64,000 nucleotides of DNA from Hormoscilla sp. GUM202 (GTDB lineage: Bacteria > Cyanobacteriota > Cyanobacteriia > Cyanobacteriales > Desertifilaceae): assembly GCA_005518205.2 (NCBI GenBank), contig RFFC02000006.1:62001-126000 (forward strand), given 5' to 3'. Positions 56,678-63,134 of this stretch are shown here, in pieces. The notes beneath the pieces were generated by a model, which had not been told where the DNA came from, searched no databases, and saw only the letters and a list, made by a program, of their open reading frames with translations. Every line of letters begins with the position of its first letter. Position 1 is the stretch's first letter. A program made the translations under genes and the position numbers.

Positions 56678-59131
56678 ATGGATTTAATTTTGTGCCATAC
56701 CACAGCGGATTTTGACTGTTTAGGGGCAGCAGTGGGGCTAACAAGACTGAAACCAGGGTCAAAGTTGGTGCTTACTGGCGGTTCTCATCCGACTGTGCGA
56801 GATTTTTTGGCACTGCATCGGGATGAGTATGCCCTGATCGAACGTCGGGCAGTTAATCCCAAATTGATTCGTTCTCTATCGGTGGTGGATACCCAGCAGC
56901 GCGATCGCCTGGGCAGGGCGGGGTCGTGGTTGGACTTACCGCAGGTGTCTTTTGTAGAAGTCTACGACATCACCGGTCGGGACTTATATTCAGATAGAGT
57001 CAGTGCGGCGACCACTACTCTCATAGTAGAACAGTTGCAGGGAGCACAGATTAGTCTCACCCCAGCAGAGGCAACGGTAATGGCTTTGGGGATCCATGTG
57101 GATACAGGTTCTCTCACTTTTGACTCTAGTACAGCCCGAGATGCCTTGGCCTTGGCCTGGTTGATGCAGCAGGGGGCCAGGTTGGAGGGCGTAGCAGATT
57201 ATGTTTCGCCTAGTTTATCTGGCCAGCTGCAAGAGTTGTTAACAGTAGCGCTGGAAAACTTGCAAGTGGAAACGGTAAGCGGTCACCAGGTAGCTTGGGT
57301 GTTGCTGTTAACTGATGGTTTTGTGCCGGGGTTGTCTAGTCTGGCAACGCGACTGCTGGAGTTAACCGATGCTGATGCCTTGCTGCTTGCCCTGCACCAC
57401 GGTTTTTCTCATGCCCCAGTCAAGGGTTATATGAGCAAGAATCTGAAAACAATTACTCCTGATACCGGACTTAGGGCGATCGAGTCTCTGATGGTGACCT
57501 ATGATATCGGGCGCTTGCCAGTTTTGCAAGCCGGTCAGTTGGTGGGCATTGTCACCCGCACCGATGTGTTGCGCCAACTGCATGCCGAACATATCCAGGC
57601 CCAACCAACAGAAAATTTGCCCAAGCATACATGCTTGCTGCCAGAGTTGCGATCGCGCCTCACTCCACAACTCTGGCATATCCTCAAGATAGCCGCCAAT
57701 GCCGCTGTTAGTTGCGGTTGGCATCTGTACCTAGTCGGTGGCGCCGTCCGTGATTTACTCTTAGCAGACAGTGAGGATATAGTGCTCCTACAAGATATTG
57801 ATTTAGTTGTGGATGGCTTTCACCGTTCTGCTGATGCCGGTGCGGGAGTAGAACTAGCAAAAGAACTACAACAACTCTACCCAGGGGCCCGTTTGCAAGT
57901 GCATGGACGCTTTCAAACTGCTGCCTTGCTGTGGCACAAAGACCCAGAATTAGATAATCTCTGGGTAGATATTGCCACGGCCAGGACTGAATTTTATCCC
58001 TATCCGGCTGCTAACCCAGAAGTAGAGGCAAGTTCGATTAGTCAGGACCTCTATCGTCGTGATTTTACCATCAATGCCTTGGCATTGCGGCTCACGGCAC
58101 CCCGTGCGGGTGAATTGTTAGATTTCTTTGGCGGTTTGCTAGATTTAGATGCTAAGTTAATTAGAGTTTTACACGCCAATAGCTTTATTGAAGACCCCAC
58201 CCGCATTTATCGCGCCGTCCGGTTTGCTGTCCGCTTGGGGTTTGAAATTGAATCCCAGACTGAAGCATATATCCATTATGCCATAGAAAGTGGCGTGTAC
58301 GATCGCTCTGTCGCTGAAAATAGCCGAGCCCCAGCCTTAGAAACAAGGCTTAAGAATGAGTTAAAATACATCTTGCAAGCGCCTTACTGGAAACCCGCTT
58401 TACAGATATTGGGTGATTTAGGAGCGTTACGCTGCATTCATTCTACTCTGGAATTGAACGATCGACTCTGGAAACAGATGCGCTTGGTCGATCGCCTCGT
58501 TACCTGGGGACCGCCTGGTAACGGCTCGTGTCCAGAGACGCCCACCCTGTCGTTCGCCTGCCCGGCAACGACATGGGTGGGCGCTCTCGGACACGATAGG
58601 TTCAGCAAATTTGAGCTGCAAATTCCCCCTTGGGAAATGCTGCTAGAAGTATTGATTGCTCAGATCCTACCATCCGAACGGGGCAAGGTAGCGACAAATC
58701 TCCAGTTACCTGCCCAGAGTATTGAGCGACTCAGTCAGCTTGACATTGTAGCATCAGTTGTGCTAGAGAAATTGCCAGACTGTCAGCGTCCCAGTCAGAT
58801 ACTGCAACTGTTGCAACCCTATGATGTGGCTACTTTAATTTTAATTGCCGTCGGGAGTTCCAGAAGCGTAAGACAGAAAATTTGGCGTTATTTAACGGAA
58901 TTTGCGCAAGTTAAATCCCCCTTGAATGGAAATGACCTCAAACAGTTTGGTTATCAACGGGGACCTCAGTTTAAGCAAATGCTGGATGCTTTATTGGTGG
59001 CGAAGCTGGATGGCCTAGTGAGCGATCGGGCTTCAGCGGAGGCTTATCTAGCAGAACATTTCCCCCGATCTGCGGGAGCAGGGAGCAGGGAGCAGGGAGC
59101 AGGGAGAGGGGAGAAAATTATTGATTCATAA
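56678..59131 (+). CDS. DHH-CBS-CCA tRNA nucleotidyltransferase
   Basis: 817 residues. An N-terminal DHH-type phosphoesterase domain (DLILCHTTADFDCLGAAVGL; VDTQQ; GIHVDTGSLTFDSS) is followed by a CBS region (MSKNLKTITPDTGLRAIESL; LVGIVTRTDVLRQL, about 250-310). The nucleotidyltransferase head is next (YLVGGAVRDLLL, IDLVVDG, RRDFTINALAL, about 350-490), then the tRNA-binding helical domain (EDPTRIYRAVRFAVRLGFEI). Such fusions add or repair CCA/A ends in cyanobacteria. Residues ~610-640 are an in-frame palindromic insertion, and the last ~20 residues read through a GGGAGCA repeat, so the true C-terminus was probably shorter. Confidence 0.92.
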   Translation: MDLILCHTTADFDCLGAAVGLTRLKPGSKLVLTGGSHPTVRDFLALHRDEYALIERRAVNPKLIRSLSVVDTQQRDRLGRAGSWLDLPQVSFVEVYDITGRDLYSDRVSAATTTLIVEQLQGAQISLTPAEATVMALGIHVDTGSLTFDSSTARDALALAWLMQQGARLEGVADYVSPSLSGQLQELLTVALENLQVETVSGHQVAWVLLLTDGFVPGLSSLATRLLELTDADALLLALHHGFSHAPVKGYMSKNLKTITPDTGLRAIESLMVTYDIGRLPVLQAGQLVGIVTRTDVLRQLHAEHIQAQPTENLPKHTCLLPELRSRLTPQLWHILKIAANAAVSCGWHLYLVGGAVRDLLLADSEDIVLLQDIDLVVDGFHRSADAGAGVELAKELQQLYPGARLQVHGRFQTAALLWHKDPELDNLWVDIATARTEFYPYPAANPEVEASSISQDLYRRDFTINALALRLTAPRAGELLDFFGGLLDLDAKLIRVLHANSFIEDPTRIYRAVRFAVRLGFEIESQTEAYIHYAIESGVYDRSVAENSRAPALETRLKNELKYILQAPYWKPALQILGDLGALRCIHSTLELNDRLWKQMRLVDRLVTWGPPGNGSCPETPTLSFACPATTWVGALGHDRFSKFELQIPPWEMLLEVLIAQILPSERGKVATNLQLPAQSIERLSQLDIVASVVLEKLPDCQRPSQILQLLQPYDVATLILIAVGSSRSVRQKIWRYLTEFAQVKSPLNGNDLKQFGYQRGPQFKQMLDALLVAKLDGLVSDRASAEAYLAEHFPRSAGAGSREQGAGRGEKIIDS
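58528..58594. mobile_element. 67-bp palindromic element inserted in frame in the nucleotidyltransferase gene
   Basis: GTGTCCAGAGACGCCCACCC and TGTCGTT are mirrored by AACGACA and GGGTGGGCGCTCTCGGACAC, giving near-perfect arms around a CGCCTGCCCGGC centre. It adds residues of low family similarity (SCPETPTLSFACPATTWVGA) without breaking the frame. Similar GTGGGC palindromes occur at 6812 and 10318. Confidence 0.8.
59076..59115. repeat. GGGAGCA tandem repeats at the gene end
   Basis: Four to five copies of GGGAGCA (59079-59105), a well known cyanobacterial repeat, are read in frame as GAGSREQGAGRGEK at the end of the nucleotidyltransferase. Confidence 0.9.
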
Positions 59132-59289
59132 TGGTTGGGAGTTGCTGGGGGGCTACGCCCTCCAGTCGATTCGCCAACATTATCAGGTGCGAAACCCAAC
59201 CGGGTGTATCTCAACTATTTTTGGTAGTATTATAATGAGATCGGCTAGCCTTGCGCTCAGCTATCGTCGATACTCGTAACCCAGCTTAG

Positions 59290-59957: not shown

Positions 59958-60371
59958 CTATTCCCCGCTTTGTTCTCCAGTATTTTTTTCGACAAGCAGC
60001 TTGAGAATTTCCACAATCTCTCCTTGACGGTTGTCCAATTTGTTGATTACCTTGTACGTGTTGGCGGTAGTATCGGCTTGAGCCTTGGCTAAATTAGCCA
60101 AAGCATTGTTGACATTAGCCAAAGCATTGTTGACATTAGCCAAAGCATTGCCTTGAGTCTCTGCTAGACTAGCTAATGTTTCCCGCAGTTCGGCCATTTC
60201 CTGCTTCGCTTGGCGATCGCTCTCTCTAAGTTCTGCCAGAGAATCTGCCACTGCTGCAATAGCATGAGCGTTCGCCTCGATTAACTTTTTCAGTTCGTCG
60301 TTATTTTCTTTTCGGATAGGCGGAGCCCAATGGTTCGTTTCTTGCAGCTTTCTCCTCATTATTCTCATCAT
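59958..60371 (-). CDS. Coiled-coil protein with short internal repeats
   Basis: 137 residues, almost entirely helical with heptad character: KLIEANAHAIAAVADSLAEL, RQAKQEMAELRETLASLAET, then three NALAN(V/L)N units, and KVINKLDNRQGEIVEILKLL. Cyanobacteria carry many similar proteins of unknown function beside Uma2-type genes. The NALANVN repeat is encoded by a 21-bp DNA duplication (60087-60150). A damaged copy of its 3' half is at 60446-60598. Confidence 0.65.
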   Translation of the reverse strand: MMRIMRRKLQETNHWAPPIRKENNDELKKLIEANAHAIAAVADSLAELRESDRQAKQEMAELRETLASLAETQGNALANVNNALANVNNALANLAKAQADTTANTYKVINKLDNRQGEIVEILKLLVEKNTGEQSGE

Positions 60372-61784: not shown

Positions 61785-63134
61785 TTAATCATCTAATCGT
61801 TTTTGTATTGTAGGATCGTGAGTTATGGCTCTTATAGCGTGTAAAGAGTGTGGTAATAAGGTCAGTGAGCAAGCCTTAAAGTGCCCAAAATGTGGCGTGC
61901 AATTGCGCAAGCCCAAGCGTGGTTTCTTTGGTAAGCTTTTTAAGTGGAGCTTCATTCTCTTTAATATCTTGATGTTTGTCTCTTTTCTGGGATTTTCCTG
62001 GCTAAATACTTCTTTGAGGGCCGCGAATTCTGTCGGATCCCCTGCTTTGGTTCCCGTGCCATGAGCTTCGATCAGGCCCACCGTGGCGGGGGAAAAGCCT
62101 GCATCTTGGTAGGCGCGACGTAAGGCTAATGCTTGCCCTGACGAACGGGGGGCGTAAATGCTCTTGTATTTGCCATCGCTGGACGTGCCGATGCCTTTGA
62201 TCGTCGCATAGATGCGATCGCCATCTGCCTGGGCATCTTCCAAGCGCTTGAGCACCATCATCCCAATCCCTTCTCCCAGCATCATCCCGTCGGACTGGGC
62301 GTCGAACGGCCTGGACTGTCCTTGTTTGGACAATGCTGGCGTTTTACTGAAGCTCATATACATGAAGATGGAGTTGTCAGCATCTACCCCGCCAACAATC
62401 ATCATGTCGCTGCGGCGCTCTGTCAATTCGCTCAGGCCCATCCGCACCGCTGTCAGTGAACTAGCGCAGGCTGCATCTACGACGCAATTCATGCCCCCTA
62501 AATCCAGACGGTTAGCAATCCGTCCAGCGATCACGTTGCCTAGCATGCCCGGAAAGGAGTTTTCTTCCCAGCCAATGTAGGCTAGTTTCATTTTCTCGAT
62601 CGTATTTTGGGTGTCCTCGTCAGAGAGGCCACTGCTTTTGAGAACCTTCTCCCAAATGGGGTATTGCAGACGACTGGTCAGGGGTGTTATCAGCTTCTGG
62701 CCGCCGCCGACCCCCAGCACTACACCTGTACGCTGCCGGATTGATTCGCTAGCTTGCTCGTAACCGGCATCCTTTATTGCTTGCTTGGCTACTACCACGG
62801 CGAGCAACTGGGCGACATCGGTTACTTCTAGAATATTGGGGGGTAGCCCAAATTCCATGGGGTTAAAGTCGATCTCGGGGATGAAACCGCCCCGCTTGCA
62901 ATAGGTTTTGTCGGGACTACCCGGGTCTGGGTTGTAGTAGTCATCAATGTTCCAGCGCGAGGGAGGCACCTCTGTTATACAATCTACTTTGCCAATGATA
63001 TTTTCCCAGTAGGCTTGCAGAGAACTGGCTTGCGGTAATATACATGCCATGCCGATGATTGCCACAGGGGTTTTACGTTTGAGTTCGCGCAGTTGGGTAA
63101 CTGGGTTTTGAAGAAGCCGGTCGTCATTGTTCAT
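61785..63134 (-). pseudogene. Ketosynthase domain of a PUFA/polyketide synthase, 3'-truncated
   Basis: From ATG 63134 comes a ketosynthase of the PfaA/HglE-like group: VAIIGMACILPQASSLQAYW, CVVDAACASSLTAVRMG (active-site Cys), EGIGMMVLKRLEDA and LIEAHGTGTKAGDPTEFAAL (first catalytic His). The second His motif (NIGH-type) is missing because homology ends after KEVFSQENPR (about 61985); residues beyond are foreign. No acyltransferase, carrier or reductase domains remain. With the PfaD remnant 600 bases away it is the debris of one biosynthetic locus. Confidence 0.85.
61825..62064 (+). CDS. Zinc-ribbon membrane protein, truncated by fusion
   Basis: The frame from ATG 61825 encodes a zinc ribbon (ACKECGNKVSEQALKCPKCG, two CxxC pairs) and one membrane helix (LFKWSFILFNILMFVSFLGF). 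After about residue 55 it reads antisense through the ketosynthase remnant, so its natural C-terminus is lost. The junction near 61985 marks the rearrangement that cut the ketosynthase. The N-terminal part is like small cyanobacterial zinc-ribbon proteins. Confidence 0.6.
   Translation: MALIACKECGNKVSEQALKCPKCGVQLRKPKRGFFGKLFKWSFILFNILMFVSFLGFSWLNTSLRAANSVGSPALVPVP

Follow-up and report, generated by a model that had tools for sequence, protein, structure and literature searches.

Two mobile palindromes probably inserted in frame in a putative A-adding tRNA nucleotidyltransferase gene of Hormoscilla

A gene for a putative A-adding tRNA nucleotidyltransferase in Hormoscilla very probably received two non-autonomous mobile palindromes, which together make up a compound insertion that keeps the frame; the insertion is shared by the genome analyzed here and the congener SP12CHS1 and missing from a second congener, GM7CHS1pb. 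Preservation of the reading frame seems to be for the most part a property of the elements themselves and not a matter of luck or of rescue at this gene, because their net length is a multiple of the codon and they contain few stops. The stretch analyzed (64,000 nucleotides, hereafter the window) comprises positions 62001–126000 of contig 6 in a 6.87-Mb cyanobacterial assembly (G000). The two Hormoscilla genomes compared with it, GM7CHS1pb (G001) and SP12CHS1 (G002), are metagenome assemblies; parts of two papers describe these organisms as symbionts of dysideid sponges (PMC6520454, PMC7313196).

Results

The gene and its putative product

The top NCBIfam match of the gene (Table 1) is NF041569, the A-adding tRNA nucleotidyltransferase, at 361 bits, below the curated cut-off of 1440 bits; the match is split by motif loss, a 375–423 nt deletion, and inserts. 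The poly A polymerase head domain, with its GGAVRD motif, is intact, and a match to the gene was found in all 99 genomes searched. Cyanobacteria divide CC addition and A addition to tRNA between two enzymes. Only two PF01743 genes occur in G000, and the other one, on contig C19, would fit the part of the CC-adding partner; with only these two present, it is plausible that the window gene is essential, as the first-pass annotation had held. We infer that its product stays functional as a putative A-adding enzyme.

Table 1. Features of the window discussed in the text (window positions).
Feature	Positions	Strand	Basis and remarks
A-adding tRNA nucleotidyltransferase gene (putative)	56678–59131	+	single ORF, 817 aa; PF01743 and CBS matches; DHH-like N-terminal part, one remaining CBS domain, PolyA_pol head, C-terminal body
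Three deletions of 1, 19, and 1 nt (21 nt in total)	56967–57025	+	alignments
Junction of in-frame deletion	57385–57386	+	alignments with GM7CHS1pb and SP12CHS1
Whole insert, two mobile palindromes	58496–58597	+	alignment with GM7CHS1pb and SP12CHS1; missing in the 28 orthologues outside Hormoscilla
24-bp mobile palindrome GTTACC...GGTAAC (third family)	58499–58522	+	dispersed genomic repeat
71-bp mobile palindrome (main family)	58526–58596	+	translated SCPETPTLSFACPATTWVGALGHD, residues 617–640
C-terminal tail: GGGAGCA heptamers and start of dispersed repeat	59066–59128	+	sequence; second genomic copy

A compound insertion in the C-terminal body

Alignment with homologues, the check proposed in the first-pass annotation, defined the limits of the insert (Table 1). 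Its net gain over the empty site of GM7CHS1pb is 93 nt, or 31 codons; SP12CHS1 has the same insert, and 28 of 28 orthologues outside Hormoscilla lack it, with the site there reading approximately DRCLRRFDP. Residues 607–640 of the window protein (34 residues) take the place of about three residues in the other orthologues. That annotation had read the feature as a mobile palindrome lying in frame in a housekeeping-type gene, a reading open to refutation by palindrome-free relatives with the same residues; GM7CHS1pb and the 28 outside orthologues, all palindrome-free at this site, lack them, and the reading stands. It had also spoken of one palindrome of 67 bp adding about 22–30 residues without a frameshift. 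The palindrome is real and the frame is kept, but the palindrome measures 71 bp, the gain is the 31 codons given above, and a second palindrome of 24 bp, likewise a mobile repeat, precedes the first at a distance of three bases.

This 24-bp palindrome, of the third family, has 45, 48, and 33 matches in G000, GM7CHS1pb, and SP12CHS1, respectively, with up to three mismatches, and none in a reversed control. Folded as DNA, the 96 nt around the 71-bp palindrome reach −34.5 kcal/mol compared to a shuffled mean of −14.8 (z −8.8; none of 200 shuffles as good). An Rfam search of the region returned no family; a sub-threshold match to an animal lncRNA was rejected.

In an AlphaFold model, which was built on a 17-sequence alignment and has an overall mean pLDDT of only 66.5, residues 612–643 (32 residues) have a pLDDT below 50 and lie between helices 595–609 and 651–661, the latter with a pLDDT above 90. 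The model suggests that the inserted residues form a tolerated floppy loop, where the first-pass annotation had seen protein remodelling. By sequence only, the site was aligned to solved relatives from Thermotoga and Aquifex (3h37, 4wby). The target would have been the loop linking a pair of helices in the C-terminal body, ancestrally DRCLRRF.

The C-terminus of the protein ends within GGGAGCA repeats, as the first-pass annotation had stated: four heptamers occupy 59074–59101, and the tail, together with the stop codon (59129–59131), belongs to a dispersed repeat. At least one further copy of this repeat (window 59066–59200) occurs in G000 (C6:183351–183415, 92%). The tail is found only in the window and SP12CHS1, and the remaining orthologues end sooner. 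In a separate part of the window, 21-bp direct repeats at 60081–60150 (ORF 59958–60371, minus strand) yield the repeated seven-residue motif NVNNALA.

Other lesions and insertions in the same gene

As listed in Table 1, the window gene has suffered further changes upstream. The three small deletions removed the DHH motif, after which the frame is regained, and the larger deletion (375 nt compared to GM7CHS1pb, 423 nt compared to SP12CHS1) took the first CBS domain together with the last portion of the DHH part. The SP12CHS1 copy keeps an intact frame of 1009 codons despite several inserts: a 48-nt palindrome nested in frame inside the 71-mer, a second at window position 57588, and a third where the window has its larger deletion (423−375=48), each a pair of elements of the 24-bp TCGG-flanked family described below, together with a 24-nt insertion at window position 57652. 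Two of the 48-nt inserts are exactly 48 nt by alignment and the third by subtraction, and all listed insertions in this copy are codon multiples. The GM7CHS1pb copy (L039) contains a longer insertion near window position 57774, after which the reading frame is lost; this insertion contains a C-rich/G-rich hairpin formed by CCCCCCAAACCCCCC and its complement.

Dispersal, net length, and ends of the 71-bp family

At least 87 matches to the 71-mer are listed in G000, with 40 of 246 candidates scored. Among 59 genomes searched the element was present in three, all Hormoscilla (29, 13, and 28 matches), and a reversed control gave none. We sought empty sites for 26 insertions (14, plus 12 of the 16 listed) and measured net length between anchors 12 bp outside the element, the same rule being used at every site; 17 insertions gave a measurable comparison. 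Nine sites (L004, L006, L005, L044, L057, L056, L065, L078, and L075) were left out, mostly because the element is also present in the other genomes or because the match was absent or fragmented.

Of the 17 measured sites, 11 showed a net addition of 72 nt, and the other six gave 70, 73, 74, 77, 87, and 95 nt. Eight of the net-72 sites are within gene-like ORFs or border on them. The other three (L059, L045, and L108) are without a clear gene, and at L059 and L045 the frames crossing the element extend over at most about 90 flanking codons. Since only two or three net-72 sites fall outside ORFs, selection on the frame is not fully separable from intrinsic length. Frame keeping is not peculiar to this gene, because a net length of 72 nt prevails at the majority of sites measured, some of which have no long ORF. 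Copies can also break frames, as shown by L077 (+73) and L080 (+74), where the ORF ends soon after the element. The element at L077 is 72 bp long for a net 73, so the net length looks like element plus one base.

The ends of the 71-mer read TCGTGTCC...GGACACGA or variants thereof. No target duplication longer than 2 bp adjoins the 71-mer at 44 unique sites; one 3-bp match adjoins its 69-bp core in the same survey. An inverted 1-bp duplication at the ends was considered and dropped, as complementarity of the second flank pair was limited to 12 of the 44 sites. At 22/44 sites the fourth base pair outward from the core is the same on either side (mostly G/G or C/C), and at only 2/44 it is complementary, which is possibly a target preference. 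Among the matches listed there was no autonomous partner with the ends of the 71-mer, and none of the four Y1_Tnp genes of G000 was found to carry a 71-mer in the fetched flanks. At three places in G000 (C1:271153–271393, C3:143335–143575, and C23:28610–28800), 71-mer-like units are nested or in tandem with a spacing of about 55 bp, as if palindromes had been inserted into one another.

The window copy is free of stops in all six frames, as are 154 of 5000 sequences shuffled by mononucleotide and 846 of 5000 shuffled as palindromes. Among copies with distinct flanks, 40/54 are open in all six frames compared to 74/778 GC-matched stretches, a comparison that is descriptive rather than an independent test because the copies share ancestry. 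All six readings of the 71-mer occur within gene-like ORFs.

The 24-bp TCGG-flanked family

By exact-pattern search the 48-bp palindrome had seemed confined to this gene, which proved wrong, since half of it, a 24-bp unit, belongs to a large family (75, 32, and 183 matches). Ten sites were taken, eight of which could be measured; anchors failed at L201 and L199:1501, and also in a second comparison for L200 (L226). The net addition was exactly 24 nt at six of the eight, and at L197 it was 24 nt against one genome and 27 nt against the other. The A-rich end of the element abuts TCGG at 10/10 listed sites, and TCGG is also present in five of six empty sites, with TCCG in the empty L197 site of GM7CHS1pb; on the opposite strand, the family inserts just after CCGA. 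Some of these elements sit within 71-mers, at the junction CTC/TCGG. The pattern resembles that of the single-stranded DNA transposases of the IS200/IS605 type. Because of the fixed TCGG neighbor and the lack of target duplication, our guess by analogy is that a single-stranded DNA (HUH/Y1-type) transposase may move the 24-bp family; the same guess is weaker for the 71-mer.

Palindromes in other genes

A search for further in-frame copies, also proposed in the first-pass annotation, found them in several other genes; the genes named here cover the 71-mer copies that were fetched. In-frame 71-mers occur in nitrite reductase (NirA), where the element falls between the reductase and ferredoxin domains; in a DUF3352 protein, a trehalose synthase/maltokinase (TreS), and a DUF4058 protein; in a DUF748/TamB-like protein (weak matches); in a TolC-like protein, before the domain; in an aldo-keto reductase (GM7CHS1pb and SP12CHS1); and at the C-terminus of an M23 peptidase. 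In GM7CHS1pb the NirA insert has lost 27 nt of the hairpin tip and has kept the frame. Profile matches for 71-mer-bearing ORFs include the A-adding enzyme, NirA, DUF3352, TreS/maltokinase, DUF4058, the aldo-keto reductase, and LpxC, and some other such ORFs appear transposase-like by eye. LpxC (L052:1073–2278; L243, L244) has two palindrome sites, filled in G000 and SP12CHS1 and empty in GM7CHS1pb. Relative to the latter, LpxC gains 24 and 40 codons in G000 and 16 and 39 codons in SP12CHS1, always in frame.

Discussion

We consider the insertion of two mobile palindromes the most probable source of the extra residues in the A-adding enzyme. A 71-mer landing anywhere in a gene, in either orientation, would add about 24 residues and, as a rule, would cause neither a frameshift nor a stop. 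Such insertions would be frame-silent because most measured sites show a net gain of 72 nt and the majority of copies lack stops in all six frames. Copies landing in loops and linkers would then survive, and later changes within inserts, such as the 27-nt loss in NirA (GM7CHS1pb) and the 48-nt gain in SP12CHS1, may be held in frame by selection.

That the residues are instead ancestral and were lost in relatives, with no palindrome inserted, is scarcely credible: the window and SP12CHS1 have them in common, but GM7CHS1pb and 28/28 orthologues outside the genus possess the short form, and the same DNA recurs at many unrelated sites. An origin of the insert in faulty assembly or binning is very improbable. 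The congener genomes are metagenome assemblies and the indels in the DHH region of the window could be errors, yet the insert is found in two separate assemblies with independent differences. We regard as unlikely the proposal that the gene is a decaying symbiont pseudogene, in which inserts are tolerated only since the protein no longer matters. The enzyme may indeed be decaying, because the window copy is without its DHH motif and first CBS domain, and that of GM7CHS1pb is interrupted. However, every lesion in the window is in frame, GGAVRD and the head domain are intact, the SP12CHS1 frame is complete at 1009 aa despite several inserts, and G000 has just one PF01743 gene besides this one. 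Moreover, nonsynonymous changes are few relative to synonymous ones between the window and SP12CHS1 (pN 0.013, pS 0.054, residues 241–608).

Frame keeping could also reflect survivorship only, with net lengths varying at insertion and in-frame copies alone persisting in genes. Many measured sites do lie in gene-like ORFs, and frame-shifting copies exist (L077 and L080). Against this, 72 nt is also the net length at L059, L045, and L108, the first two without a long ORF, the spread of 71-mer net lengths is narrow, and the 24-bp family likewise gives 24 nt at six of eight sites; we therefore judge survivorship alone improbable. We put forward only tentatively, as possible, the stronger proposal that these are selfish palindromes adapted at the level of the element to life inside proteins, with lengths of 24, 48, and 72 nt, six-frame openness, and stacking in the A-adding enzyme and LpxC.

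Several known systems resemble these palindromes in part. Rickettsia palindromic elements (RPEs) are mobile repeats of palindromic form that occur in frame within protein genes unrelated to each other, according to parts of three papers (PMC10969869, PMC3733652, PMC6649704). The Hormoscilla palindromes likewise keep the frame in several protein genes that are not related, and their carrier too is a host-associated bacterium. They differ in host phylum, in size (71 bp versus the about 150 bp given in part of PMC10969869), and in that no CGTC tag was seen at the end of the 71-mer, whereas RPEs have this tetranucleotide at one end in the part of PMC3733652 concerned. For the Hormoscilla element the net length was measured at orthologous empty sites and the majority of copies proved open in all six frames; RPEs may share these features. 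The same part of PMC3733652 describes intragenic REPs, short hairpins in coding genes of several species with repeated insertions in one gene. The 24-bp TCGG-flanked family is REP/RAYT-like as a hairpin beside a fixed tetranucleotide; however, the tetranucleotide is TCGG/CCGA, not GTAG or CGTC, the 71-mer is without a tag, and no Y1 transposase locus accompanies the 71-mer in the flanks noted above. Because they differ in length and terminal tag, we do not class the Hormoscilla palindromes as RPEs or intragenic REPs. Like MITEs, such as the cyanobacterial Nezha, the 71-mer has terminal inverted repeats, many copies, and no coding capacity of its own; unlike them, it shows no target site duplication above 2 bp. 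No autonomous parent appeared among the matches listed. In Nostoc, small dispersed repeats (SDRs) were reportedly described by Elhai et al. in 2008 as mobile repeats of 21–27 nt in filamentous cyanobacteria, nested in repeats and heptamer arrays. The 24-bp TCGG-flanked family agrees with them in length (24 nt net) and nesting, a likeness drawn from the description only, and differs in that several Hormoscilla insertions lie inside protein genes.

RPEs, intragenic REPs, and small dispersed repeats are already known; these families and their measured frame neutrality are what the present analysis adds. Our literature search found no paper joining "multiple of three" with Rickettsia palindromic elements among the results listed, and no earlier report of the Hormoscilla palindrome families, including by term searches in the available parts of PMC6520454 and PMC7313196. 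In the excerpts cited here, coding palindromes are described chiefly from Rickettsia and some REP-rich bacteria. Three very close Hormoscilla genomes with orthologous pairs of filled and empty sites allow the net length, target, and orientation of each insertion to be determined directly, with no need to guess. Should a full census bear out the codon-multiple length, selection for gene-harmless elements would become testable, and a natural series of proteins gaining loops of about 8, 16, or 24 residues would be at hand. If adaptation at the level of the element is true, a genome could take up a flood of mobile DNA and still keep its reading frames. The Hormoscilla palindromes show a route by which junk DNA can lengthen proteins.
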